From a virus: a stretch of DNA of 58,136 nucleotides. A program made the position numbers and the translations under genes. Where the stretch lies: positions 1-58,136 of the IMG/VR virus record IMGVR_UViG_3300022937_000026. The stretch is one strand, 5' to 3'. Every line of letters begins with the position of its first letter. The first letter of the stretch is position 1. This document shows positions 2,298-29,575 of the stretch, piece after piece. The notes under the pieces were generated by a model. That model searched no databases, was not told the DNA's origin, and saw only the letters and a list, made by a program, of their open reading frames with translations.

Positions 2298-3192
2298 AAA
2301 GAAATATTATTATAGCGAAATCTTTCACAGCATTCAAGGTGAAGGACATTATACAGGTGTACCTACTGCATGGATCAGATTCTTTCTATGTAATTTACAA
2401 TGCAATGGTTTTGGACAAATAGATCCTACAAATCCAGATACATATGAATTACCGTTTGAAGATTTTGATACTAGTACTGTTACTCGTGTAGAAGATTTGC
2501 CTGTATGGGAAAAAGGTTGTGATAGTTCTTACACATGGAGCAAGAAATTTAAACACTTAATGGGTCAAAAGACTGCTGTTGAACTTGCACATGATATTAT
2601 TAATGTATTAAAAACAGATTCTAATCCAGAAGGTTTGTTTTTGCATCCAGTAACAAAACAGAGACAACACTTCTGTGTTACTGGTGGTGAACCTTTAATG
2701 AAACACGCACAAGAAGCATTTATTGGTATTATGCGTGAGTTTGAACGTTTAGGTAATTTGCCTGCAAGTGTTACATTTGAAACAAATGGCACACAGCCAC
2801 TTACACAAGAATTTATTGATTATTGGATGAATGAAGCATCGGGTATCGAATTATTTTTTAGTGTATCGCCTAAACTTTGGTCAGTTGCAGGTGAAACTGC
2901 AAAAAAAGCAATTAAGCCTGAAACAGTAGCACAATATAGAAATTTATCTAAAAACGGACAGTTAAAATTTGTAGTAGGCAGCGAACAAAAACAATGGAAT
3001 GAGATGGAAGAAGTCATTTCACAATTCAAAGAACAAATGGTTGATTATCCTATTTGGGTTATGCCCGTTGGTGCTAGAGAAGAAGAACAAACTGCAACAG
3101 CAGGTGCTGTTGCTAAAATGGCATTTCAAAGAGGTTATAATGTAGCCGCAAGGGTACACGTATACTTGTTTGGTAATGCTATTGGAACATAA
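2275..3192 (+). CDS. queE: QueE-like radical SAM enzyme (7-carboxy-7-deazaguanine synthase)
   Basis: A 305-residue protein with QueE hallmarks. FHSIQGEG at 17-24 is the usual N-terminal signature, a Cys39-x3-Cys43 pair follows, and TGGEP lies at 136-140. QueE makes 7-carboxy-7-deazaguanine, the precursor of preQ0, queuosine and deazaguanine DNA bases. The third cluster Cys does not follow Cys43 after two residues. Instead a CDSSYTW block, which matches the CDTPYTW that normally follows the third Cys, begins at Cys82. A segment of 38 residues therefore splits the iron-sulfur motif. No other deazaguanine gene is in the window. The start could also be ATG 2281. The gene overlaps the AbrB-like gene. 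Confidence 0.8.
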   Translation: MTMKIATEKKYYYSEIFHSIQGEGHYTGVPTAWIRFFLCNLQCNGFGQIDPTNPDTYELPFEDFDTSTVTRVEDLPVWEKGCDSSYTWSKKFKHLMGQKTAVELAHDIINVLKTDSNPEGLFLHPVTKQRQHFCVTGGEPLMKHAQEAFIGIMREFERLGNLPASVTFETNGTQPLTQEFIDYWMNEASGIELFFSVSPKLWSVAGETAKKAIKPETVAQYRNLSKNGQLKFVVGSEQKQWNEMEEVISQFKEQMVDYPIWVMPVGAREEEQTATAGAVAKMAFQRGYNVAARVHVYLFGNAIGT

Positions 3193-7545: not shown

Positions 7546-7576
7546 AATAAGGGCTGCAAGGCCCTTATTTCTTTTT
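7546..7576 (+). terminator. rho-independent terminator, probably bidirectional
   Basis: A perfect 9-bp stem (AATAAGGGC / GCCCTTATT) with a 6-base loop is followed by TCTTTTT. On the opposite strand the stem is followed by ATTATTTT, so it could also stop the minus-strand transcript that converges from 7673. Confidence 0.85.
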
Positions 7577-7580
7577 AAAA

Positions 7581-7697
7581 GCATTTAAACGCCTTTATAT
7601 GCGCATATAATTAAGTAGGGTAAACATACTAGCGAAGTACGCAAACACCGCTGTATGACGCTTAAAATGCGTTTAAGACGCCTTTATTTGGGTATAT
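7581..7697. repeat. imperfect 29-bp direct repeat with a perfect palindrome
   Basis: 7581-7609 and 7669-7697 are imperfect copies of the same sequence (GCATTTAAACGCCTTTATAT and GCGTTTAAGACGCCTTTATT at their starts). The first copy contains the perfect 16-bp palindrome TTATATGCGCATATAA at 7595-7610. The second copy runs into the 3' end of the minus-strand SGNH-like gene. The segment between convergent genes holds no open frame of note. Confidence 0.55.
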
Positions 7698-8446
7698 ATG
7701 AGCTGTGCGTTAGCTTTATTTGATTCTAAACCGCAATGTGCTAAATCTCTTGCAGTATTGGTAAATTCCAATTTATCTACACCAATATATTCACTTGTAT
7801 CATGGAACCAAGTAGCGTAATAGGTACGTGTGTCTTTCCAAAGATGCTTTACCTGTTCGCAGTTTAATAAAGAACGCACAACAGGATTTTCACTATGTTG
7901 CATATATCCAACATATCCATCTTCCAAAGACCATAAGCCGTGCATTTCGGGTTGATTATTTTGGAAACAAACCATTCTATTTAAGTTTGAATAAATGTTA
8001 ACAACTGCATACGGTGTAGGATAATTTCTTTTTAATAAAAAATTATTGTACAAATTAAAATCTAATCCAGATCCTGGAACTCCTAAATTAACCACAGGCC
8101 TTCCAGATAGTTGTTCTAAATAATAACTTATAGTTTCATCGTCAGCAACTCCAACTCCAGCTACCATTGAACACCCAAACAATACTATTGCTTCTTTCCA
8201 ATTAACCTTATCAAATTCATATGTACGATATCCTCTCGAATTAACGGCGTAATAAATTTCTTTGTTTCTATAATGCCAATCGTCAGGCATTTTCTTTAAC
8301 AGTCTTTTAAAACTTTTAGGATTATCAGATCCTGCAAAATAACCATAAGGTTCATGTGTTAGCCAATGTACTTTAAATAGATCTTCCATTGAAAAGTATT
8401 CAGGCAAGGTAACTGCATTGTCGTTTAAAAAATCTACAGGTATCAT
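7673..8446 (-). CDS. SGNH/GDSL-hydrolase-like protein
   Basis: A 257-residue protein with SGNH-like features. A hydrophobic strand leads to Gly91-Cys-Ser93 (IVLFGCSMVAGVGV), in the position of the nucleophile-bearing block I, and NLGVPGSG follows at 120-127 like the block II/III glycine turn. SGNH proteins remove or add acyl groups on glycans and lipids. The usual C-terminal Asp-x-x-His is not obvious, so this copy may be non-catalytic or partial. The start forms an ATGA overlap with the upstream gene, tying it to the cassette. It is the last gene of the operon. The target may be virion or cell-surface sugar, by inference. Confidence 0.65.
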   Translation of the reverse strand: MIPVDFLNDNAVTLPEYFSMEDLFKVHWLTHEPYGYFAGSDNPKSFKRLLKKMPDDWHYRNKEIYYAVNSRGYRTYEFDKVNWKEAIVLFGCSMVAGVGVADDETISYYLEQLSGRPVVNLGVPGSGLDFNLYNNFLLKRNYPTPYAVVNIYSNLNRMVCFQNNQPEMHGLWSLEDGYVGYMQHSENPVVRSLLNCEQVKHLWKDTRTYYATWFHDTSEYIGVDKLEFTNTARDLAHCGLESNKANAQLIYTQIKAS

Positions 8447-9465
8447 TTATCTTTCTCTAAGTGTTCAAACAACCTTGCTGCAAAATATTGATGTGCTTTA
8501 GCACTAGGATGGCAGCATTTAGTAAACCAGTTGTTTGGTGTTCCTTTATTTTGAAACTCCCACATACCAGTGTTAGGATTGATTCCTTCTTTTGCTAAAC
8601 ACATTTGAGCAAAAGACTTTTGTCCGTCAGGATAAAACATTTTATCCCAAGGCCATTTTCTTATTAAACCGTCTGTGTGAGCAATCTGATCTCTATCTTG
8701 GAGTTCTCCAATGTCTTTAATTTCACACTCCATTGTTCTCCATATCTGTTTGTGCAATGCACTTTTAAAATTATCAACAGTATACATATGACCTTCAAAT
8801 GCAGGCGTAATTACTAATTTTGCATTGTGTAGTTTACACCATGTTTGTAACTCAATTACATTTGATAATTGTTCTAATATAACAAACTTATCTGAATACA
8901 GTGCTTCTGCATAACCTTTCCATAAAGTCTTTCTAGGTCCGGATTGACAATCATCTGGATGAGGCCACATAGTTTGAAACATTCCATGTCCGTCAAAATT
9001 GTCTGAAATAAAATCAAATCTTTCTGGACCACTTGGCATATAGATTACTATAATTTCATCTAATGATTCCCAATCAAATTGTGTGTATAAAGAAAGACAT
9101 TTAATAGTTGCTCTATTACCTCTACCCGCCATTCCGAAATTAATACAGGTATATTCTGATTTATAATAGAGCCTTGCTAAAATATTACCAAACGCATTAC
9201 TAAAATGCATTCTAGACCAGTCAATGGTTTTGTCAGGATTAACAGAAAGCATATTTTTATACTTGAGTAAAAGTCTTGCTCTACCTTTCTTATCAATGCG
9301 AGGAGTCATAGGCTTTCCTAATCTATCCATGCTCCATTCCATTGACTCATATAAATCTTGATCTACAGCACCTTGACCTTCTACAAAAGAACAACCTAAA
9401 GTTATTATTGCTTTCTTGGTTCTTCTAAGATCTGCTAATGCTTCTTTTACCTGCCAATAAAACAT
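8443..9465 (-). CDS. SGNH-hydrolase-like protein
   Basis: 340 residues, with a very good AGGAGG ribosome-binding site. Block I is AIITLGCSFVEGQG (nucleophile candidate Ser26), then INFGMAGRGN carries the glycine turn, and CCHPSAKAH (319-325) near the C-terminus supplies a likely catalytic His325 followed by a helix, as in block V. It is longer than most single-domain SGNH enzymes because of an insertion between blocks. It would act as an esterase or acyltransferase on carbohydrate. It is related in pattern to the gene just downstream, and the pair may act on the same glycan. Confidence 0.7.
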   Translation of the reverse strand: MFYWQVKEALADLRRTKKAIITLGCSFVEGQGAVDQDLYESMEWSMDRLGKPMTPRIDKKGRARLLLKYKNMLSVNPDKTIDWSRMHFSNAFGNILARLYYKSEYTCINFGMAGRGNRATIKCLSLYTQFDWESLDEIIVIYMPSGPERFDFISDNFDGHGMFQTMWPHPDDCQSGPRKTLWKGYAEALYSDKFVILEQLSNVIELQTWCKLHNAKLVITPAFEGHMYTVDNFKSALHKQIWRTMECEIKDIGELQDRDQIAHTDGLIRKWPWDKMFYPDGQKSFAQMCLAKEGINPNTGMWEFQNKGTPNNWFTKCCHPSAKAHQYFAARLFEHLEKDK

Positions 9466-9466
9466 T

Positions 9467-10777
9467 TTATCCTCCTACGTACTCTTGTATTTTTAAAACA
9501 GAAGAAGGAAGAACTCTTGTTGTGTTAGCCTTCAGAGTTTCAAAATTGTGTTCTAATATATCTTGCATTGAAGCATACCAATCTAATTTTTGTTTTTCTG
9601 ACATTGATTTTATTTTTAACAAATTGTCAATAATCGCTTGGTATCGTTCCCAAGTATTCATACTATCATATGATTCGTCTATAAATCCTTCAAACGTTTT
9701 ATATCCTAGTTCTTTTAAGTATGTTAAACTATTCTTATTGCCGCACATAATAAAAGGATGTCTTGCTGCAATTGGCTTAAAAGATTTCTCACTTATAAAA
9801 CAAGTGTTTTCTGCATATGACGCTTCACTTACTACACTTACCCAACTATCGCGAGTTTCTTGATGATATAAATCTCGTTCGTATTGACCTCCTAACGGGC
9901 CTTCGAACTCTCCTTTCATAAAATCATTTAAACCTTTTCTCGGATACATTGGTAATATTTTCAACAACTCTTGTTGTTCTTCTGGACTAATACTCTTTCC
10001 TTCATAAAACGAATTACCAAATGTGTTCATGCTGTTAAGTCCGTCATCTAAAAGATTATTTTTATACAGATAATAGAACATCCATATGCGATGCGGTCTT
10101 GCACGTTTCTGAAAGCAGTTATACAAATGTATTTTATTTTGAGATTTGTATGTTAAATGATCCTTTAATGTGGGCAATACACTTACTTGCTTTTGTGCAG
10201 AATCATAAATTAATTCTTCAAACTGTATATGTGGTACAACAAACAATTTAGTTTGTATGTTTTTGTTAGAACAATATGCTTCGTATTGTTTTTCTACTGA
10301 AAGATTGCCTGTAACGTAAATTACTCTATCAGGACTAACATCATATTTGTTACAACAGTCGTGAAACCAATCAAACAACCAATCAGTGTGATATCCTTCA
10401 TGAGACTGATCTAATAACAAATATGCTCGACGTTTTCGAAGTGCTCCTAACATTTTAGGATTGATATGTGCAAAAACCGACTTTCTTTTTTGTGCATACG
10501 GATCGTATACTTTTCCTAGATCAGTATATCCTGTCCAGTCCCAAGGAGAATGTGTTACTCCGCTAGGTATAATAAAATTCTTATATAATTTTCTATTTTT
10601 AAAATCATCTATTACTAAAGTTGTAGGATCATAATTTTCAAACTTTGTATTAAGAGTTTTAAATCTTGATAGCATTGCTAACATAGGACTTTGCGTAAAT
10701 CTTTTAATACCTGATGAATTTACTTCCGGTCCCCAAATACCTAGTTTACCAGAAACTCTATTAACAATAAAAATCAT
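9467..10777 (-). CDS. putative glycosyltransferase (GT-B-like)
   Basis: 436 residues. The C-terminal third holds the most telling segment: SWVSVVSEASYAENTCFISE, then KSFKPIAARHPFIMCGNKNS and LKELGYKTF. The order (Glu after a strand, a Glu-Lys-Ser/Thr-Phe-Lys-Pro turn, then a His-Pro-Phe-Ile strand) is that of nucleotide-sugar-binding sites in GT-B enzymes such as fucosyltransferase-like and exostosin-like phage proteins. The N-terminal half has no clear signature. The donor sugar is unknown; the neighbouring RmlB-like gene suggests a 6-deoxyhexose. It overlaps the oxygenase gene by four bases. Confidence 0.6.
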   Translation of the reverse strand: MIFIVNRVSGKLGIWGPEVNSSGIKRFTQSPMLAMLSRFKTLNTKFENYDPTTLVIDDFKNRKLYKNFIIPSGVTHSPWDWTGYTDLGKVYDPYAQKRKSVFAHINPKMLGALRKRRAYLLLDQSHEGYHTDWLFDWFHDCCNKYDVSPDRVIYVTGNLSVEKQYEAYCSNKNIQTKLFVVPHIQFEELIYDSAQKQVSVLPTLKDHLTYKSQNKIHLYNCFQKRARPHRIWMFYYLYKNNLLDDGLNSMNTFGNSFYEGKSISPEEQQELLKILPMYPRKGLNDFMKGEFEGPLGGQYERDLYHQETRDSWVSVVSEASYAENTCFISEKSFKPIAARHPFIMCGNKNSLTYLKELGYKTFEGFIDESYDSMNTWERYQAIIDNLLKIKSMSEKQKLDWYASMQDILEHNFETLKANTTRVLPSSVLKIQEYVGG

Positions 10778-11541
10778 TTTCTATCCCAATCGTCAACATC
10801 TGTACTCTTGATCTGACTTCTTCTTTTAATCAAATCTAAAATTTCTTGATTACCTTGTTGTTCTTGAGTAGGTGCAAACAATGCTCTCATTCTACTATCA
10901 TTGTTGCCAGGAGCAGTAAGATAATAAACAGCAATACTATTCCTAGTAAATTTAGATTGTACTTCTGTTGCTAGTCCGTGCCAACTATTCATAGTAGTAT
11001 CAAAGAAAATAGCCCTGTTAAACAATGGTGCAATTGTTTTGTTTAAACTTGTAGGTTTGTTATTGTCACTATTCCACAATCCAAAATCTCCACCCCACGA
11101 CTCTTTCCAGCCAGGAGTAAGATATAACAGTAAATTATATTTTCTTTGCAATCCAAGTTTAGGATGTATGTTATAATCTAAATGCGGATTTAACTTTCCT
11201 TTGTTAGGATGTATATGCCAGCCACCGCCATGAAGTCCTGGATCAGAAAATAATACATCTTCAGTTAGTTTAGAAATTAAATCTACAAAGTATGTAGAGT
11301 TTAGAAAACTAATCAGTCGATATGTATTTGCTGGAAATCTATCCCATACATTACAAGTTTTTTTAAGTTCGATAGCATTATCATAATTTCCGTTATATGC
11401 ATCTGAAGTATATTCTGGAAATTCTTTAGCCACTAACTCTGCAAATTCAGGTAGTAAAAAATTATCTATCACACAATGAGGATAAGGATCTGCTTTTTTA
11501 AAATCTGTAAATGAACGAGTTATGTTTTCAAAATTTATCAT
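10774..11541 (-). CDS. 2OG-Fe(II) oxygenase
   Basis: 255 residues from the ATG at 11541, chosen because it forms an ATGA overlap with the upstream stop; a start four codons earlier is possible. The metal and cosubstrate ligands are clear: His120-x-Asp122 (NPHLDYN), distal His188 (SWHGL) and Arg200 for 2-oxoglutarate (FTRNSIAVYYL). A GGWHIHPNKGKLNPHLDYN block matches the prolyl-hydroxylase-like family. It would hydroxylate a protein side chain or a small molecule. In this cassette, hydroxylation to create a glycosylation site on a fibre protein is plausible but unproven. Confidence 0.85.
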   Translation of the reverse strand: MINFENITRSFTDFKKADPYPHCVIDNFLLPEFAELVAKEFPEYTSDAYNGNYDNAIELKKTCNVWDRFPANTYRLISFLNSTYFVDLISKLTEDVLFSDPGLHGGGWHIHPNKGKLNPHLDYNIHPKLGLQRKYNLLLYLTPGWKESWGGDFGLWNSDNNKPTSLNKTIAPLFNRAIFFDTTMNSWHGLATEVQSKFTRNSIAVYYLTAPGNNDSRMRALFAPTQEQQGNQEILDLIKRRSQIKSTDVDDWDRK

Positions 11542-12563
11542 ACTACCAGCCATCTGTCATTTTTCAATGACCAATGTACAACTTCCTCTAACTTATCATA
11601 AACTGAACTAGGTGTCCAGCCCATATCTGCCATCTTCGATCCATCAAGTGCATATCTTAAATCATGGCCAGGTCTTGAACTATGGAAATCTACCATTTCG
11701 TAATTTAAAGGCTTATGTTGAACATCAGCAATAAACTGTGCTAGTTCAAGATTGTTAATTTCTGCACTTCCTACAATATTAAACTTCTGACACTTAGCAC
11801 CTGTTTCGTCCGGCTCTAATTTACTTAGATCGTAATTGTATAAAAACATTAATGCATCAGCAACATCTTTTGCATGGATATAATGCCTTGATCCTGCAAC
11901 TGTTTTGGCTGCGTTAGAATGTACAGTAACCTTTTCATTATCTCTAACTTTTTTAATACACATAGGAATATATTTTTCAGCATTTTGTCTTTCACCAAAT
12001 ACATTCATAGTATGTGTAATAATGCTAGGTAATCCGTATGTGTTTTCATAAGCAACTACAAGTTCTTCTGCACCTGCTTTAGAAGCACTATATGGATTGG
12101 TGCTGTTATAACGATCATTCTCTTTATATTTTACATTTCCAGGTGCAGGCCCAAATATTTCATCTGTACTGAAATAAGCAAACATATCTAAACTGTCTAA
12201 ATTACGAGCATAATCTAATAAGTTTGTTGTGCCTACAACATTGTCTAACACAAATTCCATTGGATACGAAATACTTCTGTCAACATGAGATCCTGCTGCT
12301 AGGTGTGCAATTAAATCAACTTTGCCTATCATAGATCTAATTTGAGGATTTAGTTCTGCTTTTAAATCATGATGTACTATTCTTACACGTTTACGTTCTG
12401 ATTCCGGATACGTCATCATAACTTCGTGTAATCTATTTAGATTACCGCTGTAGTCTAATCTGTCTAGAGTAACTATACGCCAATCTGTTTCTTTTAAAAT
12501 TTTGTCAACTAGATGATGTGCTATGAAACCTGCACCACCTGTAACTAATACTGTTTTACTCAT
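11538..12563 (-). CDS. rmlB: NDP-sugar 4,6-dehydratase (RmlB-like)
   Basis: 341 residues, an extended short-chain dehydrogenase. The NAD-binding TGGAGFIAHH is at 8-17, LDRLDYSGNL matches the second strand of dTDP-glucose 4,6-dehydratase, the active-site Thr133-Asp134-Glu135 is in FSTDEIFG, and Tyr158-x3-Lys162 is in PYSASK. It would convert dTDP-glucose, or a related NDP-hexose, to the 4-keto-6-deoxy sugar. No RmlA, RmlC or RmlD gene is seen beside it, so the phage probably uses host precursors or makes only the keto sugar. Coupled to the oxygenase by an ATGA overlap. Confidence 0.88.
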   Translation of the reverse strand: MSKTVLVTGGAGFIAHHLVDKILKETDWRIVTLDRLDYSGNLNRLHEVMMTYPESERKRVRIVHHDLKAELNPQIRSMIGKVDLIAHLAAGSHVDRSISYPMEFVLDNVVGTTNLLDYARNLDSLDMFAYFSTDEIFGPAPGNVKYKENDRYNSTNPYSASKAGAEELVVAYENTYGLPSIITHTMNVFGERQNAEKYIPMCIKKVRDNEKVTVHSNAAKTVAGSRHYIHAKDVADALMFLYNYDLSKLEPDETGAKCQKFNIVGSAEINNLELAQFIADVQHKPLNYEMVDFHSSRPGHDLRYALDGSKMADMGWTPSSVYDKLEEVVHWSLKNDRWLVV

Positions 12564-13929
12564 TTGCTATATCCTGTGTTAAATTATAGAAGCCTAACAA
12601 CTCTGGAAATGTTTCTTTAAAACTTGTTCCTCTTCTCTTGTCATATTCGTTAAACCAATTGTAAAAATCTTTTCTACCTTCAATTAGTCTTTCATCTGAA
12701 TAATTTGTTGCTGCCATATAATCTACAACACGTCTAAACTTTTCATACTCTAGTATGCTAAATTTATGTCTGTCCATATCATCTAAGTTTGCAGCGATAA
12801 ACTGTAGATGTTGTTTCATGTATGGTACGAATTCTTCTTTTGGTAGTATATTCATATCATACTGTAAAGGTTCTTTAAGATATGGTGTATCAAAACGTAT
12901 ACGTTGCCATTTAGTTTGATCATTGCTATTATATTTTACACGCCATTCTAAAACTTTTTCTAAAAACTTATTAAAATTAGTAACGGTTAAAATATTAAAT
13001 GTTACCATAAATGTAAGTGGAAGATTCGTTTTTGTCATGTATGTGTCAAAGTTCTTTTCCCATACAGTTAAATCTAATCCAGTTCTGATGTATTCAGCTT
13101 GTGGTCCCCAGGTATCCATACTAGTAAAAACTTTAAAATCTTTAATGCAGCCTTTTTCTAATAGACTGTTTACTTTATCAGTGAACCTTTCAATTAAAAT
13201 AGGCTTAACACCAAAGTTACTATTAATGTTAAGTTCTAACCATGGGCAAGGATTCTTTTCAAGTTCATCAAACATACGCCATGTACTTTGTTGAAGTAAA
13301 GGCTCACCGCCTGTTATTCTTAAAATTGTTAAAGTCTTACGTACTTCAGGCCACCATTGCCACCATGCCTTTACATAAGGATTATTTTCTTCTTCATAAA
13401 TTGTAAACCAATCGATATCATTTCTATGATTTTTAACCATAGTATACGGACCGTGATCTCTTATTTCTTTATGATACGAACTAGAATGTTTAGGATGACA
13501 ATAGCCGCATTTAAAATTACATTCATTACCGAATGATATTTCTATGTACTGCGGATTAACATCTCCAAGAGGGTTATTTTTAATTGCCTCAAATCTTTCT
13601 TTAGTATAGATACTAGCATTTCTTTCTTTCCTGTCAGATATATAGTCTTTGCCCATGCATTCAATATTCCAACAATATTGGCATCCGCTAGGCTTCTCTC
13701 CGGAAATCATTTGTTGTCTTTCTGCTTTTTTTTGAGGAGTATTATGCAGCAGACTTGGATTTTCTTCAAGTCCACCTAGCGGAATCTTGTGAGGAGCGGG
13801 ATGATAACAACTATGTGTTTCGCCTGTTTGCATATAGATAGTCGTATGGTGCCATTTCGCTAAACAAAAAGTAGGCGATATTTCATCCATCATAGGTTCA
13901 AAACTTTGTATACGTTCTTTATCTTTCAT
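12556..13929 (-). CDS. radical SAM protein with N-terminal twitch/SPASM-like domain
   Basis: 457 residues from ATG 13929, supported by AGGAAAGG just upstream; a longer frame exists. A core radical SAM cluster Cys137-x3-Cys141-x2-Cys144 (ECNFKCGYC) is followed by RITGGEPLLQ. Before it lies a cysteine-rich auxiliary segment at 21-91 (FCLAKW, CYHP, GCQYCWNIEC) resembling the half-SPASM or twitch domain that normally comes after the radical SAM core. This order matches the N-terminal-twitch class. Enzymes with auxiliary clusters often modify peptides or sugars. It lies between a dehydratase and glycosyltransferases, so a sugar or protein target in the same pathway is likely. Confidence 0.8.
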   Translation of the reverse strand: MKDKERIQSFEPMMDEISPTFCLAKWHHTTIYMQTGETHSCYHPAPHKIPLGGLEENPSLLHNTPQKKAERQQMISGEKPSGCQYCWNIECMGKDYISDRKERNASIYTKERFEAIKNNPLGDVNPQYIEISFGNECNFKCGYCHPKHSSSYHKEIRDHGPYTMVKNHRNDIDWFTIYEEENNPYVKAWWQWWPEVRKTLTILRITGGEPLLQQSTWRMFDELEKNPCPWLELNINSNFGVKPILIERFTDKVNSLLEKGCIKDFKVFTSMDTWGPQAEYIRTGLDLTVWEKNFDTYMTKTNLPLTFMVTFNILTVTNFNKFLEKVLEWRVKYNSNDQTKWQRIRFDTPYLKEPLQYDMNILPKEEFVPYMKQHLQFIAANLDDMDRHKFSILEYEKFRRVVDYMAATNYSDERLIEGRKDFYNWFNEYDKRRGTSFKETFPELLGFYNLTQDIANE

Positions 13930-14968
13930 TGAACCTTTCCTGTAACCATTCAAAATCATTAATCTTTTTAAGAGCTTCTACATTTGTACTATTTTCTACA
14001 CCGTATTTTCTTCCAGCTCTTGCACCTTGTATAGCATAGTCGCCAAAGTCTCTTTCTCTACCATATGTAGAGCACCATCTAGACAACCTCATATCTGTTT
14101 CGTCATCATTTTGTCCTTTGATAGTTCGACTTCCTAACTTACAACATTCTCTAAAAGCACTTTTCCATGTACTAAAAGGATCTGTATTAAAAGCAGTGAT
14201 GTTGCTTACCTGTTCCATTACTCTAAAACTGTCAGATATGCTTGTTGTCATATCAGGGCTATTTGTATCCATATCAATGGTCATTTGTCTTGGAAACAAT
14301 TTTACTCCACCATATCCGTACTCTAAATCAGTAATCGGATTTTTGCTACGCCATACATATACACTTTTTCTTGCGTTGAAATCGTAATAAGGTATTTGCA
14401 TATTAAAATTAAAATCGGAAAGCAATTGTGCATCTGCATCTACAATATAAAACATTTCTGTAGAACATAACATTGCTGCTTCTTTGTGTGCATTGTGTAT
14501 TCCTTTAATATCTTTAATCCATTTAGCGTGTGGTGCTTTTTCTAAAAGTTTTTTATAATTTTCTTCTGCACTAGATTCATGATAAGAAATAAATGCTACA
14601 TCATATTGTTTAGGTTGACTTGCTATAATGTCTACTTCTTTTTTATTTGTAAAAAATCTATAATCCCATTCTCTTTGTAATACTTTTGAGTTTTTAGGAA
14701 AGATACACGGACCGTCAAAGAAATTTCCGTTTTTAAAAACATGAATGTATGCTTCGTCCCACTTAGGTATTTTATAATCTAAATCAAAATCATCAGCAAT
14801 ATCTAAGTGATCCCAGATAACCCAAAAATGTTTTGTTAAAGATTTTTTCGATACTGTTTCAAAAGAATTACAGTTCTCTACTTTCTGAGCATTAGAAAAC
14901 CTTTGCTGGAATTCAATCCATACATCGTTATCTATCATACCACTGCTGACAAAAAATATATCATACAT
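13919..14968 (-). CDS. GT-A-like glycosyltransferase-family protein
   Basis: 349 residues, in two parts. Residues 1-120 have no clear signature. From 121 on it aligns by eye with the neighbouring gene 14961-15866: DVAFISYHESSAEENYKKLL, HNAHKEAA, then a nucleotide-sugar DxD motif (Asp177-Ala-Asp179 in FYIVDADAQL), YGYGGVKLFP, and FSTWKSAFRECCKLG. The pattern is that of family 2 or similar GT-A transferases, so it is probably metal-dependent. It likely arose by duplication with its neighbour. It overlaps the radical SAM gene by eleven bases and the upstream gene by eight. Confidence 0.65.
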   Translation of the reverse strand: MYDIFFVSSGMIDNDVWIEFQQRFSNAQKVENCNSFETVSKKSLTKHFWVIWDHLDIADDFDLDYKIPKWDEAYIHVFKNGNFFDGPCIFPKNSKVLQREWDYRFFTNKKEVDIIASQPKQYDVAFISYHESSAEENYKKLLEKAPHAKWIKDIKGIHNAHKEAAMLCSTEMFYIVDADAQLLSDFNFNMQIPYYDFNARKSVYVWRSKNPITDLEYGYGGVKLFPRQMTIDMDTNSPDMTTSISDSFRVMEQVSNITAFNTDPFSTWKSAFRECCKLGSRTIKGQNDDETDMRLSRWCSTYGRERDFGDYAIQGARAGRKYGVENSTNVEALKKINDFEWLQERFNER

Positions 14969-15866
14969 ATTCTTTACTATAATAGGTTGTACCCATGTTT
15001 AACGATTCTTCATATAACGAAACAAGGTATTCACTTTCAGGTGGATCAAAAGTGGGCCAGTTGAATCCCAGTTTATTTTTAATTTCTTCGCCGAGCCATT
15101 TAGTTTTATCAACTAGCTCTATCTCATTTTGTTCGTACTGTGCAGAGTCTTTAGCATAAAGTTCTGTCAAATAATCAAAATCTCTAACTTGCACATGATC
15201 CCAATCAGTACAGTTAGTCATGTATGTTCCTAGTCTTGCACCGTATATTGCCCACAAACCATTTTCAACGTGACTGCCTACTGTTGACCACATACGTAAT
15301 CTATGTAAGTTATGCCACCATATACGTTGTGCTATTTCTTGTGGAGGAACTTTAATACCTCCATCTAGTGTCATTTTAACACCCTCTCGGAATCCTGCTC
15401 GCCATGCCATGAATGGTGTTGCATTAATAATAGTATCACTGTAGGTCTTAGGAAAATTTCTATATCCATCTTCCCAACAGAAATCAACCTGAGCTCTTTC
15501 ACTGTCTGAGTTTTCATGTGTTTTCATATTAAGCACATGGTCTTTCTTCCAAAGTTTTAAACCACCATTACCATACCGAAGTCCGTTAACATTGTTCTTA
15601 CCGCACCAACTATATGCTCGGATATTAGGATTGTCCATGTCTATTTCAATGTCAAAGAATTCCGGATAGACTATATTGTCAGCATCAACAGTTAACACCC
15701 AGTCTGTTTCGCTTTGCTCTGCTGCTGCTTTATGAGCATGGTCTGATCCTTTTACACCGTGTATTCTTTTAGCCCAAGGCACTTTATTACATAGATCAGC
15801 GTAATGCAAATCTGCATTAGGCTCATCGTAACTTAAAAAGAAAACATCAAACTCAACTACTCTCAT
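14961..15866 (-). CDS. GT-A-like glycosyltransferase-family protein
   Basis: 301 residues. FDVFFLSYDEPNADLHYADL opens a Rossmann-like half, SDHAHKAAAEQ follows, the DxD motif is Asp61-Ala-Asp63 (LTVDADNIV), and YGNGGLKLWKKD and FMAWRAGFREGVKM recur as in the downstream paralogue. It lacks the paralogue's 120-residue N-terminal part. A C-terminal segment of about 70 residues beyond the shared region ends in TTYYSKEYV. Acceptor and donor are unknown. Translational coupling on both sides (ATGA overlap with the upstream gene) places it firmly in the cassette. Confidence 0.7.
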   Translation of the reverse strand: MRVVEFDVFFLSYDEPNADLHYADLCNKVPWAKRIHGVKGSDHAHKAAAEQSETDWVLTVDADNIVYPEFFDIEIDMDNPNIRAYSWCGKNNVNGLRYGNGGLKLWKKDHVLNMKTHENSDSERAQVDFCWEDGYRNFPKTYSDTIINATPFMAWRAGFREGVKMTLDGGIKVPPQEIAQRIWWHNLHRLRMWSTVGSHVENGLWAIYGARLGTYMTNCTDWDHVQVRDFDYLTELYAKDSAQYEQNEIELVDKTKWLGEEIKNKLGFNWPTFDPPESEYLVSLYEESLNMGTTYYSKEYV

Positions 15867-16501
15867 AATATTTCCATCTCGTAATACTTTAATAAACGTC
15901 TTGTATAAATGCTAAATTTTTCTGGATACTTGATATTTTCAAAAGTAACCCCTGTCTCTATTACTTCATCTAATGTAGCATTTACAGATGTATACTGTAA
16001 ATGAGGATCATTATAAGCAGTAATCATAAAATTCATTTCTGTATCACCTGACCAAAAGATTTTTCTTTTCGCAAATGAACCGTCTATTTTCTTAGTACCG
16101 CCGTATTCTTCACTTAGCTCTACTTTCAAAGTATTATTTTTAGTATCCGCAGTAACATAAACGTCAGGTTTTTCAAACTCACTCCATCTATGTTCTACAA
16201 TTCTATGTAATACATCATCCATTGTCCAAAGATTTTTTTCTTCAACAATTTCTAAACTTCCAGATGTGCTATCAACATAACATTTAAAAATATTAACTTC
16301 ACCGCTTGTAATTCTTAAGGCAGTTTCTTCGTCAATATCTAGTTGATGCTTATATGTGTCTGTATTGATAGAATAGTCTGGACCTACGCATTGTACTTTT
16401 CCAGTTTCAGGATCATATGCCGCTACGTAATTAATTACAGGTGGCGTATAATTTTTTAACCATTCATCAAAATCTGGAAGATCGTCTCTTACTTTTTCCA
16501 T
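15863..16501 (-). CDS. hypothetical protein of the modification cassette, 212 aa
   Basis: Preceded by GGAGGAAA. The protein is acidic and beta-rich (INYVAAYDPETGKVQCVGPD, TSGEVNIFKCYVDSTSGSLE, FMITAYNDPHLQYTSVNATL) and has no transmembrane or DxD motif. It sits between the two glycosyltransferase pairs and overlaps both neighbours. It may be an accessory or substrate-presenting protein rather than an enzyme. I do not recognise the family. Confidence 0.6.
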   Translation of the reverse strand: MEKVRDDLPDFDEWLKNYTPPVINYVAAYDPETGKVQCVGPDYSINTDTYKHQLDIDEETALRITSGEVNIFKCYVDSTSGSLEIVEEKNLWTMDDVLHRIVEHRWSEFEKPDVYVTADTKNNTLKVELSEEYGGTKKIDGSFAKRKIFWSGDTEMNFMITAYNDPHLQYTSVNATLDEVIETGVTFENIKYPEKFSIYTRRLLKYYEMEIL

Positions 16502-17331
16502 GCTATTTCCTCCAAAACATTTATTGTTTCTTTTGTTATTTTATTTTTCTCAACATAATGTACTATATCAGTTTGTTGATAATTGCCTATCTTTAATTTT
16601 GCATTTTCATCAAAATAAAATCCTACATAGTCAGTAACTACATTTGCTAAATGAGGCCAGTTCTGAACATTACCTTTTAAATGTACAACACGTGGAAAGT
16701 CTAACGGATACGAAATCTCATCACTAATATCTAATATCTTTGATGCTAGTGCGAATGCTTCGTCAGTTCCTACGACTTTAGGTTTATACTTTGATAAAAA
16801 TCTATTTGAATATTCTGTAGGATTTTTAATAATGCTACGTCCAAGTTCAAAAAATTCTTTAGCAAGTTTACTATCTTTCTTAAAGAATGTATAAAAACTA
16901 TAAAGATTAGGTAATTCATTTTCAGTAAAACATTTTCTATAGAAGTTACTAGTTACAAGTTCACCTCTGTATGTGTATGCTTTGTTAGCAATGTACAGTT
17001 CTGTTTCATTGCTAATAAAATATTCAACCCAATGACTATAATCTCTAAAGAATAACATATCTGCATCTAAGCAAACTGTGTGTTCATAAGGTGTAAGTGT
17101 ATCCATATATGATCTTACGTCCCAACCTTCTGGACCGTTAAACTCGATTATTTCATCAAACACCCAATTAGAACGCTCTTCTTGAATTAAACTCTTGTCA
17201 TTAATAACTAAAGAAACATTATCATATCCCTCTTTCTGTGTATTCTTAATACTTAGAGCAAGTGCATATGCTAAATCATAATAATTAGATTCGTGTGTTT
17301 CGTTAACAAAAATCAAATAACCAAATTTCAT
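16489..17331 (-). CDS. GT8-like glycosyltransferase
   Basis: 280 residues with a GT-A layout. An N-terminal strand and helix (DLAYALALSIKNTQ) come first, the metal-binding DxD is Asp89-Ala-Asp91 (TVCLDADMLFFRD), and late in the protein HLKGNVQNW (His217, Gly220, Trp225) has the spacing of the GT8 HxxGxxKPW motif, with the Lys and Pro replaced. GT8 enzymes are retaining transferases that use UDP-sugars. It is a relative of the gene just downstream. The start has GGAG upstream and overlaps that gene's stop region. Confidence 0.75.
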   Translation of the reverse strand: MKFGYLIFVNETHESNYYDLAYALALSIKNTQKEGYDNVSLVINDKSLIQEERSNWVFDEIIEFNGPEGWDVRSYMDTLTPYEHTVCLDADMLFFRDYSHWVEYFISNETELYIANKAYTYRGELVTSNFYRKCFTENELPNLYSFYTFFKKDSKLAKEFFELGRSIIKNPTEYSNRFLSKYKPKVVGTDEAFALASKILDISDEISYPLDFPRVVHLKGNVQNWPHLANVVTDYVGFYFDENAKLKIGNYQQTDIVHYVEKNKITKETINVLEEIAWKK

Positions 17332-18185
17332 ATTAACTCCATCAACTTATCTATATTTCTTACAATAGAAGATTTATTCATAATATGAATATCTCTATTG
17401 GCAATACTTGTAGTTACAAAACCTTCTCTGTTGTTTAATAGCAGTGTTAATTTTCCCTTAGGATCAACATCAAATAATACATCTCTGTCAATTGAAGATA
17501 AAACAGATGGCAATCTATAATCATTATCTGTTTCAAACCCATACATAATGTGTCTAGCAATACTAAAACTAATATCATTTCTATATAAGCGTGGGTCAAA
17601 CCTATATAGATCTGCAAATCTTCTATAATTTACTCTTACATAGTTTACAAGATCAAAAAATGTTTTTGATTCTTCATTTTTTGTAAACATTACAGTAGTT
17701 GCCCACAATAATTTTACACCCGTATCACTAACATATCGATCAAGATAACCTATTCTATCTGATCCTTGGACATCATTATAGTCTGATGATATTAGTAAAC
17801 TACTATCTGTATCCCAATAATTGTTAAGTGTATCTGATAAAATAAAAAAATCTGTATCAATCATTAATGTTCTATCATAAGGAGTAACATCCCACACTGT
17901 TCCTCTATTTGTATTTTTAAACAATGTGGTAAATTTGTTCACGCCATCATTTAGATAACGCATTTGATCTTCATGGGGACGATCGACTGAAATTATATCG
18001 TCGAATACTTTAAGTGCGGTTTTCCAGTCATTAGATTTACGCATCCAATCAACAGTTGATGGATCAGTTACCATACTAACAGGAACTTTTAGATTTTTCT
18101 TAGCAAGACCGCCGGCAACAATTGCCATTTTAGCATAATCTAATTGCCTATTATTATGTGCATATAAGATTACACCTTTTTTCAT
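17328..18185 (-). CDS. GT-A-like glycosyltransferase (GT8-like)
   Basis: 285 residues, related in layout to the adjacent gene. KKGVILYAHNNRQLDYAKMA begins the fold, then VPVSMVTDPST and FDDIISVDRP, and a DxD at Asp110-Thr-Asp112 (LMIDTDFFILSD). The C-terminal His segment (RDIHIMNKSS) lacks the Gly and Trp of the GT8 motif seen in its relative. A separate acceptor or donor specificity is likely. An ATGA overlap joins it to the small gene upstream. An alternative is a non-catalytic partner of 16489-17331. Confidence 0.65.
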   Translation of the reverse strand: MKKGVILYAHNNRQLDYAKMAIVAGGLAKKNLKVPVSMVTDPSTVDWMRKSNDWKTALKVFDDIISVDRPHEDQMRYLNDGVNKFTTLFKNTNRGTVWDVTPYDRTLMIDTDFFILSDTLNNYWDTDSSLLISSDYNDVQGSDRIGYLDRYVSDTGVKLLWATTVMFTKNEESKTFFDLVNYVRVNYRRFADLYRFDPRLYRNDISFSIARHIMYGFETDNDYRLPSVLSSIDRDVLFDVDPKGKLTLLLNNREGFVTTSIANRDIHIMNKSSIVRNIDKLMELI

Positions 18186-18529
18186 TCTACCAACGCTTCA
18201 ACAGATCTACTCTTTTTAATTTTTTGATATTCTTCCATGTACTCAAATGTCGATTGAAAATATCTGTCAAAGATATCCTCTTTAAAAACATTCAAGTCTT
18301 CGACAATAACAGGATTGTCATTAATATCCAAAAGAACCACATTCTCTGATCTTCCTTTGTTTACTAACATTTCAACAAAAGTTAATAGAGTTCTATCAAT
18401 TTTAAAAATCCCACCATTATAACCAAAGGTTAATTTGGCATCAATTTTTTCTTTGAGTGTCTTGCGTTGAATATTAAGCGTTTGTCGATAGTTAGAGAAC
18501 TCTAACGCTTTTTTATATTCTTCTTCCAT
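18182..18529 (-). CDS. conserved phage hypothetical protein, first gene of the cassette, 115 aa
   Basis: Preceded by GAGGAG and by a late promoter box at 18557-18564. The sequence is charged and helical, with YRQTLNIQRKTLKEKIDAKL, then TFGYNGGIFKIDRTLLTFVE, and a C-terminal helix. Proteins very like this are, from memory, widespread in T4-like cyanophages near fibre genes. No motif is catalytic. Its position between the fibre genes and the glycosyltransferases makes a virion-associated or assembly role possible. The function is unknown. Confidence 0.7.
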   Translation of the reverse strand: MEEEYKKALEFSNYRQTLNIQRKTLKEKIDAKLTFGYNGGIFKIDRTLLTFVEMLVNKGRSENVVLLDINDNPVIVEDLNVFKEDIFDRYFQSTFEYMEEYQKIKKSRSVEALVE

Positions 18530-18547
18530 ATAATACTCCTCATTATA

Positions 18548-18570
18548 TACGCATATTATTTATTTGCGTA
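18548..18570. repeat. inverted repeat around a late promoter box
   Basis: TACGCA at 18548-18553 and TGCGTA at 18565-18570 form a perfect 6-bp inverted repeat with an 11-base spacer. The late promoter box 18557-18564 lies in the spacer. It could be an operator. Confidence 0.5.
18557..18564 (-). promoter_or_regulatory. T4-type late promoter box
   Basis: AATAAATA on the minus strand, 28 bases before the start of the 115-aa gene that opens the modification cassette. The leader between them carries a strong GAGGAG. This suggests late expression of the whole 7673-18529 operon. Confidence 0.65.
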
Positions 18571-18589: not shown

Positions 18590-19522
18590 TTATACTACCG
18601 AAATGCCGCCTACAAAGATAACAGGAGTTTCAATAGTGAAGTTTCCAGCACTTGCTGGTTGCATAGTACCAGTTGCTTCAGTAGTTTGAACAGCATATGT
18701 CACAGTTCCATCTACTGAGTCAGGGCCGCCACCTAATCCAAAGTGTCCGTCAGTCCAACGTACTTCAAACTCTAAATCTTTAGAAGTACCATTTTGGTTG
18801 TTTGAAACATCTAAACAACGTGCTTTAATAGACCAAGTATTCAAAGCATATGGACTACTTGCAACTAGATTTGCAAAAGGATTAGTGAAAGAATTGGTTA
18901 ATCTAAAAAAGTTATATCCGTCTTGTGGACTTGTACCAGATCCTGGAAAGTTTCCGCCAAATTTTTGTGTTCCTGCTGTTGACAATAATGTTGTCCAAGA
19001 ACTATTTTGATTTGTGGAACTTCCACCAGTACGTGAACTACTAAAATCAATACTGCTTCCACTGGCAAAGAAATGTCTTGCTTTTTCTGCTGTTGTAAAT
19101 GTTACTCTAACAGTAGCAACCAATCCAGTATACCATGTTGTAGTAATATTTTGTGTTCCGTGATTAACAGTTCTTGCTCTAGTCGGTGGAACTTGATTAC
19201 GTGCATTTGCTGTAATTGTTGCGTTAACTGATGCCCAATAATCTATAGGAGCATTTGAAGCGTTGTATCTAAGTCTATCACTTTCTGTTGGAGCAGTGAC
19301 ACCACTAGGTGCTGCTGCAAATATATGATCATAAGCATTTAAGATATCATATCTTAGATTAGCAAACTGTTCAACTGTAACGCTATCAGAAGTAGTAACT
19401 TGGCTGCTGTTTAATACTTGGCCATAACCGTATTGTCCAAAACCTGTTCCCATCACTGTGGCGATTTCGTTTTGGATAACGTTATAATCAGATACTCTTA
19501 CTTTTGCGTTAACACTTGCCAT
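18590..19522 (-). CDS. virion structural protein, paralogue A
   Basis: 310 residues, low in Cys and rich in Ser, Thr, Gly and Asn, typical of a phage virion protein. It shares its layout with the adjacent gene 19556-20449: an N-terminal SDYNVIQNEIATVMGTGFGQ-like helix and YGYGQ, then FTTAEKARHFFASGSSIDFS, SRTGGSS and a beta-rich C-terminal half. These shared blocks show a duplication. It is followed by the modification cassette and led by a late box at 19539-19546. A tail fibre, adhesin or head-decoration role is possible. No cleft or enzyme motif is seen. Confidence 0.65.
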   Translation of the reverse strand: MASVNAKVRVSDYNVIQNEIATVMGTGFGQYGYGQVLNSSQVTTSDSVTVEQFANLRYDILNAYDHIFAAAPSGVTAPTESDRLRYNASNAPIDYWASVNATITANARNQVPPTRARTVNHGTQNITTTWYTGLVATVRVTFTTAEKARHFFASGSSIDFSSSRTGGSSTNQNSSWTTLLSTAGTQKFGGNFPGSGTSPQDGYNFFRLTNSFTNPFANLVASSPYALNTWSIKARCLDVSNNQNGTSKDLEFEVRWTDGHFGLGGGPDSVDGTVTYAVQTTEATGTMQPASAGNFTIETPVIFVGGISVV

Positions 19523-19538
19523 GTTTATACCTCAATAA

Positions 19539-19546
19539 TATTTATC
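19539..19546 (-). promoter_or_regulatory. T4-type late promoter box
   Basis: GATAAATA on the minus strand, 17 bases before the start of paralogue A, with a GAGGT ribosome-binding site between. It separates this gene from paralogue B upstream. Confidence 0.65.
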
Positions 19547-19555
19547 GGTAACTTT

Positions 19556-20449
19556 TTAGGAAGCACTAATACTTGAAAGAGAATATGTTGGAGAAACAAT
19601 CGTATAAGGTGTTCCGGACGGTTGTAGTATAGCATTTGTCTTTAACTCTTCGATATTGATTGTTAAAGTACCGTCTACTAAATCGCCTGGTGCTGGTGGA
19701 CCTAGGTCCACGTAAGAATCATTTAACCTAATTCTAATATCTAGTTGAGTGGCTGTTCCCGTTGCGTTATCCGCTACATCAGTTTTTGCCGATAATTGAT
19801 AGTTGTTTGCAGAATATGGAGTACTGGTACTTAATACATAAAAATCTTGATATGAATTAGTTAAAGTATAATAGTTTATAACAGGATCTGTTGCCGCACC
19901 AAAGTTTTGGTTACCTGCATTATCTAGTATATTAGTCCAAGCATTGTTCTGCGGTGATGAAGTTCCACCTGATCTGCTTGTGGTAATTCTAATTTTACTT
20001 CCTGCATTAAAAAAATATCTAGCTTCTGTTGCTGTTGAAAATGTAACTGTTAATACTGCTTCAGCAAGAGTGTTCCATGAACCGGAATATGTTTCACTGT
20101 CTTTAGCAGTTGTAGTAAAATTTGCAATATCAAATCTACTAATTCTAAGATCATTAGCAACAGTCTGATAAGAATTAATCGGATCTGCTGCTCCTGCTCT
20201 AACAGGATCTGTAGTTAGTGCTATAGGAAGTGTAGGAGTTACTCCTTTTTGATGCTGGTATATTGATACTAAATCAAATCTAATTGCATCAAAGTCTGCT
20301 TTACGTGCTGTCTGGCCCGGAGTTACTTCATAACTTTCAAAAGTTTGTCCATACCCGTAAGTACCACTTCCGGGACCTAATACTTCAACTGTGTTGTTTC
20401 TTAAAGTATTTAAATCGGTTGATTTAATATCTGAGCCAGTTGTTGCCAT
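19556..20449 (-). CDS. virion structural protein, paralogue B
   Basis: 297 residues, a clear relative of 18590-19522. Matching blocks are IKSTDLNTLRNNTVEVLGPG, YGYGQTFES, FSTATEARYFFNAGSKIRIT, then SRSGGTSSPQNNAW, and a C-terminal beta-rich half. It overlaps the stop of the upstream fibre gene by a single base (TAATG), so it is probably translated with that gene. It is presumably a component of the tail or fibre complex. No known domain can be named from sequence alone. Confidence 0.65.
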   Translation of the reverse strand: MATTGSDIKSTDLNTLRNNTVEVLGPGSGTYGYGQTFESYEVTPGQTARKADFDAIRFDLVSIYQHQKGVTPTLPIALTTDPVRAGAADPINSYQTVANDLRISRFDIANFTTTAKDSETYSGSWNTLAEAVLTVTFSTATEARYFFNAGSKIRITTSRSGGTSSPQNNAWTNILDNAGNQNFGAATDPVINYYTLTNSYQDFYVLSTSTPYSANNYQLSAKTDVADNATGTATQLDIRIRLNDSYVDLGPPAPGDLVDGTLTINIEELKTNAILQPSGTPYTIVSPTYSLSSISAS

Positions 20450-22212
20450 TACAATACCACCGCTTCTATGATTTTAACATCTTCGCTCGAATTAGTTTCT
20501 AATGCTATTGCAAATACATCTGAGGATTGTCCTGATCTAATTGCAGTTCCATTAGCAGAAGCAACTAATCTATCACCTTTAGTAACAGGTCCAGTAACTT
20601 TACACGGTACTCTACCTTTCAATGCAACAAATTGCCCCTCTGCAAGTTCAGCGTTCATCATAAAAGCAGGTAGTGTTGAAATAACACCTAACGCTCTATC
20701 ACCATCTTTTGATTTTGTGACTTCTTTTGCTCCACCAACTGATACCACTGTGCCTGGTTCATACTGTGCATCAGTTAGATATTTTTCTGCAAGGTCAGCG
20801 TAACGTGCTGCTGTAGCAGTACCTTGAAATAGGTTAGCAGTTAAATCTCCAGCACCATCTCTGGCTGCAATTGAATTTGCTGTAGCTGTAGTTTTTGCTG
20901 TTCTGTAATTCGGGTCTGTATCAGTTGCAGAATTATCTATTTTAATTCTATCTGCCTTAAGAGCTGTTCCTTGGAATGTGTTTGCATAGATGTCACCTAG
21001 TGCATCTCTTACAGGAATACTTAATCCTGATCCTGGAACTGTAGTGCTAGGTTGAATACTGTTCAACGCACTTGCATTGGTTGCTGTACCAGTTAAGTTA
21101 CCTTGTACTGAACCAATTAATGTACCTTTTAGTGTAGCAGATGAATAACCAATTTCTTTAGTGCTGGCATTAACCATAATGGTTGTGTCATTTGCTAATA
21201 AGTTACCTGTATGAGCACCTGTTGAGTTACCAGTTACATTTCCAGTTAAATTAGCGTGTACTGTAGTTGCATAAATTTCTTCCCAAACTCTTGAAGAAGA
21301 ACCTAAACTGAAAACGTTCGTAGTACCTGGAATAATTCCATTTGTAGAAATATCAAAAATATTTCTTCTTGTTACGCCGTCTTCTGTAATAATAACACTA
21401 ATATCATTACCTAGTATACTTTCAATTACAATTTCGTCATCGTTTTCAATTCTAACTCTGAAATCATTATCATTACCAATTTTAATACCTGGGTCTTGGA
21501 AACTGATTTCTTGATTGAAGGTAATTGATCCTTTTTGTAAGAATTGATCTGCATCAATACCACCTAATTTTAATGAATTAGATGCTGTTCCCCAATACAC
21601 ATAATCGTCTGAGCTAACACCTGATGTATTTGTATTAACTAATGTAAATCCTTTTTTGATTGTTGAAAAACCATCAATAGGATTAACTGATGTATTTAGG
21701 TTGAATTCTGATTGTGATACAATACCAACGACTTTACCGCCGGCATTAATTTTTAATATTGAATGGTTAGCATTACCAGTATCTTTAACTACTTGAGCTA
21801 CAACACCTGATGAACCAAGATCTGGTGATGCTTCTGGTCCAACTAAAACGAACTGGGATCCGTCATAGGCATATAATTGTTTTGCAGAAGTGTCCCACCA
21901 AAAATCACCGGTTCTTAAACCTGATGGTGCAGTAGCACTAGCTTCTGCTCCGCCGGCTTTTTTCCATTTATTGCTATCGTAGAACATAAGTGCTCTGTTA
22001 GCACTATCATACCACATCTGTCCTTCAATTGCTTTAGGTGGCGGTGTAGTATTTCTAAAATTTTCTAATAAGTGTAAAAAGTTCTCATTCTGAACTTCAC
22101 CGTAACCTGCATAGTTTTTACCAACAAAACGCAGATCGGTTGTTGTATCGATAGTACCATCTTCAACCGAAGTTAAAAATGTACCGTTAAATCTGTCTAC
22201 TTGATATGCCAT
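20449..22212 (-). CDS. tail-fibre-like protein 1
   Basis: 587 residues. The first about 130 residues are the N-terminal module shared with the three fibre genes upstream (MAYQVDRF, FVGKNYAGYGEVQNENFLHL, GQMWYDSANRALMFYD, GDFWWDTSAKQLYAY, LVGPE), probably the anchor to the baseplate or fibre base. The middle is a low-complexity beta region (GNVTGNSTGAHTGNLLAND). From about 470, ADLAEKYLTDAQYEPGTVVS begins a C-terminal domain common in marine phage fibres (then FVALKGRVPCKVTGPVTKGD), which may mature the trimer or bind a receptor. The late box is at 22236-22243. Confidence 0.8.
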   Translation of the reverse strand: MAYQVDRFNGTFLTSVEDGTIDTTTDLRFVGKNYAGYGEVQNENFLHLLENFRNTTPPPKAIEGQMWYDSANRALMFYDSNKWKKAGGAEASATAPSGLRTGDFWWDTSAKQLYAYDGSQFVLVGPEASPDLGSSGVVAQVVKDTGNANHSILKINAGGKVVGIVSQSEFNLNTSVNPIDGFSTIKKGFTLVNTNTSGVSSDDYVYWGTASNSLKLGGIDADQFLQKGSITFNQEISFQDPGIKIGNDNDFRVRIENDDEIVIESILGNDISVIITEDGVTRRNIFDISTNGIIPGTTNVFSLGSSSRVWEEIYATTVHANLTGNVTGNSTGAHTGNLLANDTTIMVNASTKEIGYSSATLKGTLIGSVQGNLTGTATNASALNSIQPSTTVPGSGLSIPVRDALGDIYANTFQGTALKADRIKIDNSATDTDPNYRTAKTTATANSIAARDGAGDLTANLFQGTATAARYADLAEKYLTDAQYEPGTVVSVGGAKEVTKSKDGDRALGVISTLPAFMMNAELAEGQFVALKGRVPCKVTGPVTKGDRLVASANGTAIRSGQSSDVFAIALETNSSEDVKIIEAVVL

Positions 22213-29567: not shown

Positions 29568-29575
29568 TATTTATT
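29568..29575 (-). promoter_or_regulatory. T4-type late promoter box
   Basis: AATAAATA on the minus strand, 26 bases before ATG 29542, at the very end of the giant gene. It decides the start of the 214-aa structural gene. Confidence 0.65.

Follow-up and report, generated by a model that had tools for sequence, protein, structure and literature searches.

A fibre-linked enzyme cassette with a constant core and exchangeable modules in uncultured aquatic phages, a candidate pathway for late glycan decoration

Islands of glycosyltransferase genes beside tail fibre genes are already known from pelagimyophages, cyanophages and jumbo phages. Those of pelagimyophages carry GT8, UDP-glucose dehydrogenase and radical S-adenosylmethionine (SAM) genes (PMC7029224); clusters of epimerase, glycosyltransferase (GT) and 2-oxoglutarate (2OG) oxygenase genes occur in cyanophages and jumbo phages (PMC7824862). 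Four core orthogroups of the moraphages, which are large aquatic jumbo phages, are putative glycosyltransferases (PMC12619734). Virion proteins of mycobacteriophages carry glycans, which have been read as a shield (Freeman 2023, as cited in PMC12619734), and a virion-protein cluster has been described at CDS 170–215 of phage Atu_ph07 (PMC6102473). We have analysed a cassette of twelve genes at positions 7673–18529 of a 58,136-nucleotide stretch of viral DNA (IMG/VR record IMGVR_UViG_3300022937_000026), the whole of which is called the window below. An earlier note on this DNA had taken the twelve genes as one set; they fall instead into two halves, a conserved core of seven genes (18529–12556) and a swappable module of five (12563–7673). 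The parts of the locus are as follows.

18590–22212, minus strand: fibre block (310-, 297- and 587-residue proteins), directly upstream of the cassette
18557–18563, minus strand: late-promoter-like box ATAAATA, upstream of the operon and kept 5′ of the first core gene in relatives
18182–18529, minus strand: core gene 1, 115-residue protein, modelled as helix-beta-helix with a weak likeness to phage DUF4376 proteins
17328–18185, minus strand: core gene 2, candidate GT-A (GT8/glycogenin-like) transferase, invariant D110xD112
16489–17331, minus strand: core gene 3, candidate GT-A (GT8/glycogenin-like) transferase, invariant D89xD91
15863–16501, minus strand: core gene 4, 212-residue protein, two-domain beta-rich model
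14961–15866, minus strand: core gene 5, putative GT-A transferase, invariant D61xD63
13919–14968, minus strand: core gene 6, putative GT-A transferase, invariant D177xD179
12556–13932, minus strand: core gene 7, N-twitch radical SAM enzyme (NF033640), CxxxCxxC
11538–12563, minus strand: module gene 1, RmlB-like NDP-sugar 4,6-dehydratase of the short-chain dehydrogenase/reductase (SDR) type, TDE and YxxxK
10774–11553, minus strand: module gene 2, 2OG-Fe(II) oxygenase, prolyl-hydroxylase-like, H124xD126 and H192
9467–10777, minus strand: module gene 3, GT-B-like transferase, at motif level only
8443–9465, minus strand: module gene 4, SGNH-like protein, GCS and HPS motifs
7673–8446, minus strand: module gene 5, SGNH-like hydrolase/acyltransferase, S93, D234 and H237
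7546–7569, no strand: terminator-like hairpin between convergent operons, where the exchangeable module has its fixed far border

Eighty viral loci were obtained by scanning with the radical SAM gene. Dozens of contigs show the core genes in unchanged order after the same fibre block, and a fibre-block homologue lies at most 1.5 kb upstream of the core in 53 of the 56 testable loci; the linkage that the earlier note had wished to see checked in related phages is therefore present for the core. Twenty-seven loci reach from the core to the far border, and the slot between the two holds 4.5–6.7 kb of alternative genes. At least five alternative modules occur at the site following the radical SAM gene. 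Their labels come from Pfam, with amidinotransferase, SGNH, methyltransferase and similar names inferred by reading the sequence.

Module I: radical SAM, GT-B-like, SGNH-like, GT-B-like and UDP-glucose/GDP-mannose dehydrogenase genes
Module II (that of the window): RmlB-like SDR, 2OG oxygenase, GT-B-like and two SGNH proteins
Module III: GT-B-like, SDR and 2OG genes
Module IV: nothing but radical SAM genes
Module V (phages further removed): amidinotransferase-like and DegT-like genes in addition

Sugar-type and side-chain enzymes are thus combined differently among the modules. In freshwater relatives (L051–L054) the slot encodes an 817-residue double radical SAM protein, and another two genes in it are of the radical SAM type. 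Jumbo phage fibre and core genes are also found on contigs from bacterial metagenome-assembled genomes (MAGs), namely L169 (PBPT01000016.1, 335 kb), L167, L168 and L170–L172. They were rejected as cellular homologues of the core. Since the contigs carry fibres and the MAGs mostly also hold the jumbo-phage baseplate protein gp6, most of these contigs are probably misbinned phage genomes.

A first scan had suggested that the module was unique to the window phage. Scans with the SDR and 2OG genes, by which the relatives of module II were found, overturned this: the module recurs complete and in the same order in uncultured phages (L084–L111). One group of these, L084–L093, agrees with the window at 31–36% in core genes 2 and 3 and at 60–62% in the radical SAM gene, as against 89–91% in the SDR and 42–62% in the other four module genes. 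A second, L096–L111, is closer in the core (64–70% in gene 3, 71–77% in the radical SAM gene) and further in the module, with the SDR at 80–84% and the 2OG and GT-B genes likewise more distant. On the tree of the core radical SAM gene module II turns up in no fewer than four separate places, and among the 20 module I rows of one clade (support 100/100) the window, represented by its twin L001, is the sole row with module II. The four joined module genes group the window with L084, L088 and L093 (100/99); the four joined core genes place it away from them (100/100). Because the two trees conflict with full support, it is well supported by phylogeny that the module has been exchanged between lineages at a fixed site. 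Co-evolution of fibre and module type was set aside as a test of the acceptor, being confounded by lineage. Between L103 (4324–11823) and L098 a jump in nucleotide identity, from 73% to 100%, falls within the radical SAM gene, and the higher value is kept for 7.5 kb.

The DxD motif is invariant in each of the four GT-A candidate families of the core (alignments of 22–28 relatives). None of the four matched Pfam or NCBIfam. Their naming as putative GT-A transferases rests on the motif; weak glycogenin matches (E about 0.1) were seen for genes 2 and 3 only. The name N-twitch radical SAM is confirmed by a score of 313.3 bits against NF033640 (cut-off 170) over residues 28–457, and the cluster motif reads C147xxxC151xxC154. 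Among 50,697 cultured phage records no match was found for core genes 2, 3, 5 and 6, and for the radical SAM protein only one of 27%, in two Vibrio phages. The 115-residue product of core gene 1 is predicted with a pLDDT (model confidence score) of 88. It had no match in the PDB, and DUF4376 proteins are frequent among its nearest viral models, with weak E-values; it is a possible fibre chaperone. Pfam matches such as IFN-gamma were discarded as chance, having arisen in 1 of 23 members. The 212-residue product of core gene 4 resembles uncharacterised phage proteins only.

In the module, the SDR is closest to dTDP-glucose 4,6-dehydratases, which agrees with its earlier naming. It scores 239.8 bits against the RmlB equivalog TIGR01181, below the cut-off of 365.1, and we call it RmlB-like, with a putative substrate that is not assured. 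TDE (at 133) and Y158SASK162 are present; the third glycine of the glycine motif is replaced (GGAGFIA). The 2OG-Fe(II) oxygenase was likewise correctly named, scoring 59.2 bits against PF13640 (cut-off 27) with the HxD...H iron triad. Of the solved structures OGFOD1 is the closest (E 8e-9), and prolyl hydroxylases follow at a wide distance. The catalytic motifs of the SDR (TDE, YxxxK), 2OG, radical SAM and GT-A genes are thus intact. The GT-B-like name of 9467–10777 is supported by no profile: the protein had no match in Pfam, NCBIfam or the PDB, and a conserved SEKxFKxIA-like block is all that was seen. Two SGNH proteins had been proposed. The triad S93, D234 and H237 of 7673–8446 is invariant in an eight-row alignment; 8443–9465 keeps the Ser and His motifs (GCS, HPS), but its catalytic Asp was not identified.

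The twelve open reading frames were confirmed, all on the minus strand and almost without spacing, with 60 nt between the last gene of the fibre block and the start of the cassette. The description as one coupled operon directly behind the fibre genes was accurate. The statement that many starts overlap the upstream stop as ATGA applies to five of the eleven junctions; five others are overlaps of 8–41 nt and one is a 1-nt gap. The radical SAM start is annotated at 13959. As the frame has a stop just upstream of 13932 (Met10) in most relatives, the start is probably 13932, which shrinks the overlap of this gene to 14 nt. Upstream of 18529 we found AAATAAATAATATGCG. The window has no copy of the classical T4 late box TATAAATA, which was accordingly rejected as the operon promoter in favour of the shorter ATAAATA. 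Six of the seven copies of ATAAATA in the window sit 5–70 nt 5′ of a gene start on the same strand (0.2 expected by space), and a TAAATA box is found 5′ of the first core gene in almost every close relative; the late promoter proposed earlier is to this extent upheld. The cassette is flanked by the fibre block on one side and by a convergent plus-strand nuclease/QueE operon on the other. The QueE-like radical SAM gene of that operon (2275–3192; PHROG 2076, 190 bits) hints at deazaguanine chemistry. The fibre protein encoded at 20449–22212 has a weak match to Peptidase_G2, an autoproteolytic chaperone, near its C-terminus.

The earlier note had looked to marine myoviruses for comparison; the view of the phage as an ordinary one of these is not supported. 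Among the matches listed, those of the gp6 baseplate protein are to jumbo myoviruses only, the top ones being Phosso, SCTP-2 and Atu_ph07 (35–38% identity over 98–99%); the cultured phages nearest by gp6 have genomes of 440–490 kb. Relatives of the cassette lie on contigs of up to 186 kb with the same gp6 at 50–70%, and on the 335-kb contig, in whose MAG gp6 is found at 47%. These gp6 matches, the gp6-bearing contigs of the relatives and the 335-kb MAG contig show the window to be part of the genome of an uncultured jumbo myovirus from an aquatic habitat. A giant open reading frame adjoins gp6 in Atu_ph07, Phosso and the window; the homologous gp6 and the synteny of the giant virion protein are those of the Rak2-like/Atu_ph07-like jumbo supergroup. 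In the window this frame (29571–43337) encodes 4588 residues, and its counterpart at the same position in Atu_ph07 has 4449. A late sigma factor is encoded at 53239–54084.

Virion decoration or host-surface remodelling had been suggested for the cassette, and a late, fibre-linked operon that mixes sugar-nucleotide, transferase, hydroxylase, radical and SGNH chemistry is still best read in these terms. We put at about even the chance that it encodes a late, soluble pathway of glycan decoration whose core is constant and whose terminal part can be exchanged, the fibres being its likeliest acceptor. Gene content, operon layout, the late-type box, a core that stays constant, the modular structure and the horizontal exchange are the observations on which this builds; the enzyme activities, the order of steps, the acceptor and the benefit are proposals, with the chemistry of each step drawn from family knowledge. 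The operon would be transcribed late in infection, together with or just after the fibre genes. The core enzymes (two GT8-like and two other DxD transferases and the N-twitch radical SAM enzyme, with two small helpers) would act in the cytoplasm, where they would prime or assemble a conserved glycan. Hydropathy predicts no transmembrane segment in any of the twelve proteins, which fits such cytoplasmic action. The acceptors would most likely be the proteins of the adjacent fibre block, modified ahead of virion assembly; these are rich in Ser and Thr, which make up 16–24% of the fibre block and 10–14% of the cassette proteins. The module would then complete the glycan. Its RmlB-like enzyme may turn a host sugar nucleotide into a 4-keto-6-deoxy sugar, which the GT-B-like enzyme would attach, and hydroxylation and acyl editing of the product could be the work of the 2OG oxygenase and SGNH proteins. 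One module would replace another by recombination at the fixed site, which extends from the radical SAM gene to the convergent operon, and the terminal structure would change with it, the benefit probably being escape from, or tuning of, surface recognition.

A more specific version, which we offer tentatively, is that of a phage serotype locus: the seven-gene machinery would glycosylate the fibres, and five- or six-gene modules swapped among jumbo lineages would switch the terminal glycan. If so, the phage would vary its own surface in modular fashion, in a manner comparable to bacterial O-antigen loci.

Several points weigh against decoration of the fibres. The acceptor is putative, and soluble GT8-type enzymes also build lipopolysaccharide (LPS). 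The naming of the GT-B and SGNH proteins is weak. In the window the fibre genes share the lineage of the core, not that of the module, and therefore fibres and module do not travel together. The jump in identity between L103 and L098 could be recent recombination or an assembly chimera, and was for the latter reason dropped as proof of recent swapping. The window contig itself is metagenome-derived, with a 100% match to one other contig only (L001).

The alternative that survives best is remodelling of the host surface. The LPS O-chain or capsule would be altered during infection, with the module setting the serotype, and superinfection would be blocked or progeny kept from re-adsorbing to debris. 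This is the published reading for comparable GT8/dehydrogenase/radical SAM islands of pelagimyophages (PMC7029224) and for epimerase/GT clusters of jumbo phages and cyanophages (PMC7824862). GT8-like transferases and sugar-nucleotide enzymes fit it, and the swapping of modules resembles O-antigen locus exchange. However, the operon has a late-type box and is placed behind the fibres, the lack of a membrane protein among the twelve means that there is no flippase, polymerase or membrane-bound initiating transferase, and a core radical SAM enzyme with a module 2OG oxygenase would be unusual for LPS. We regard host-surface remodelling as possible, if rather doubtful.

Maturation of peptide side chains is unlikely to be the main task. 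The radical SAM enzyme and the 2OG oxygenase would hydroxylate or crosslink residues of a fibre or baseplate protein, to be capped by the transferases. The likeness of the oxygenase to OGFOD1, and far more weakly to prolyl hydroxylases, is in keeping with this, as is its weak match to the cyclophane-peptide oxygenase YhhC; in the same slot the cultured relatives Atu_ph07 and Phosso have radical SAM-SPASM genes next to one for a protein whose Cys/His/Ser tail is conserved. That tail, however, is absent from the window and the marine loci, sugar-type enzymes (six or more) predominate in the cassette, and we know of no characterised substrate for the N-twitch family. Hypermodification and glycosylation of the phage's DNA bases is very improbable: transferases, oxygenases and radical SAM enzymes of phages do act on DNA elsewhere, and the window also holds the QueE-like gene, but the operon is late and fibre-linked, the oxygenase profile is prolyl-hydroxylase-like and not TET/JBP-like, and SGNH and RmlB-like genes misfit a base pathway.

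The abundance of transferases in large aquatic phages has been ascribed to host-surface change, DNA decoration and virion decoration alike. A fixed, fibre-linked core with a swapped finishing module offers a testable handle, since a single terminal structure is all that should distinguish phages which share a core and carry different modules. The four core transferases and the GT-B-like family are candidate new enzyme families, having no named family here.

The earlier note knew of no described system with this set of genes. Fibre-adjacent islands have been described (PMC7029224, PMC7824862), and the exact set recurs in L084–L111. What appears to be new is the architecture of constant core and exchangeable module, with phylogenetically supported exchange, together with core transferase families that lack a named family and core enzymes essentially unmatched in cultured phages. 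Atu_ph07 (Agrobacterium) and Phosso (Sinorhizobium) share the arrangement of baseplate, giant virion protein, fibre and enzyme operon, but their slot holds radical SAM-SPASM and cupin/2OG-like genes and no annotated transferases. Behind the fibre in this slot lies a protein of 296–306 residues (L185, 11119–12009, Atu_ph07 gp170; L188, 20415–21335, Phosso 289) that ends in CH[ST]SCHASCH[NS]SRSRR, three His-Xaa-Ser repeats; the adjacent SPASM genes weakly match maturases of ribosomally synthesised, post-translationally modified peptides, including HxsB. As CDS 170–215 of Atu_ph07 form a virion-protein cluster (PMC6102473), the gp170-type protein may be a virion protein modified by radical SAM chemistry. 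His-Xaa-Ser tails were looked for in the marine loci and none was found. Mycobacteriophage glycans, as cited in PMC12619734, sit on capsid and tail tube, and the analogy to the window is functional only. The clusters of P-SSM2, S-SM2 and S-SSM6a (PMC7824862) share an NAD-dependent epimerase/dehydratase, multiple transferases and 2OG oxygenases, and S-SM2 and S-SRM01 encode an SDR about 70% identical to that of the window. In S-SM2, however, the SDR lies near tRNA genes with sugar kinase and heptose genes, both absent from the window cassette, and neither fibre linkage nor a radical SAM core was seen in that cluster. The pelagimyophage host recognition cluster (PMC7029224) is likewise a hypervariable island by the tail fibres, with GT8-type transferases, UDP-glucose dehydrogenase and radical SAM cassettes. 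It belongs to T4-like phages of SAR11 and lies between VrlC and gp14, whereas the window derives from a jumbo phage with other flanks (the fibre block and the convergent nuclease/QueE operon), a constant seven-gene core and exchange of whole modules. The moraphages (PMC12619734) are aquatic, with a T4-like baseplate and four putative core glycosyltransferases; a module structure is not described for them, and they may be relatives of the window phage.

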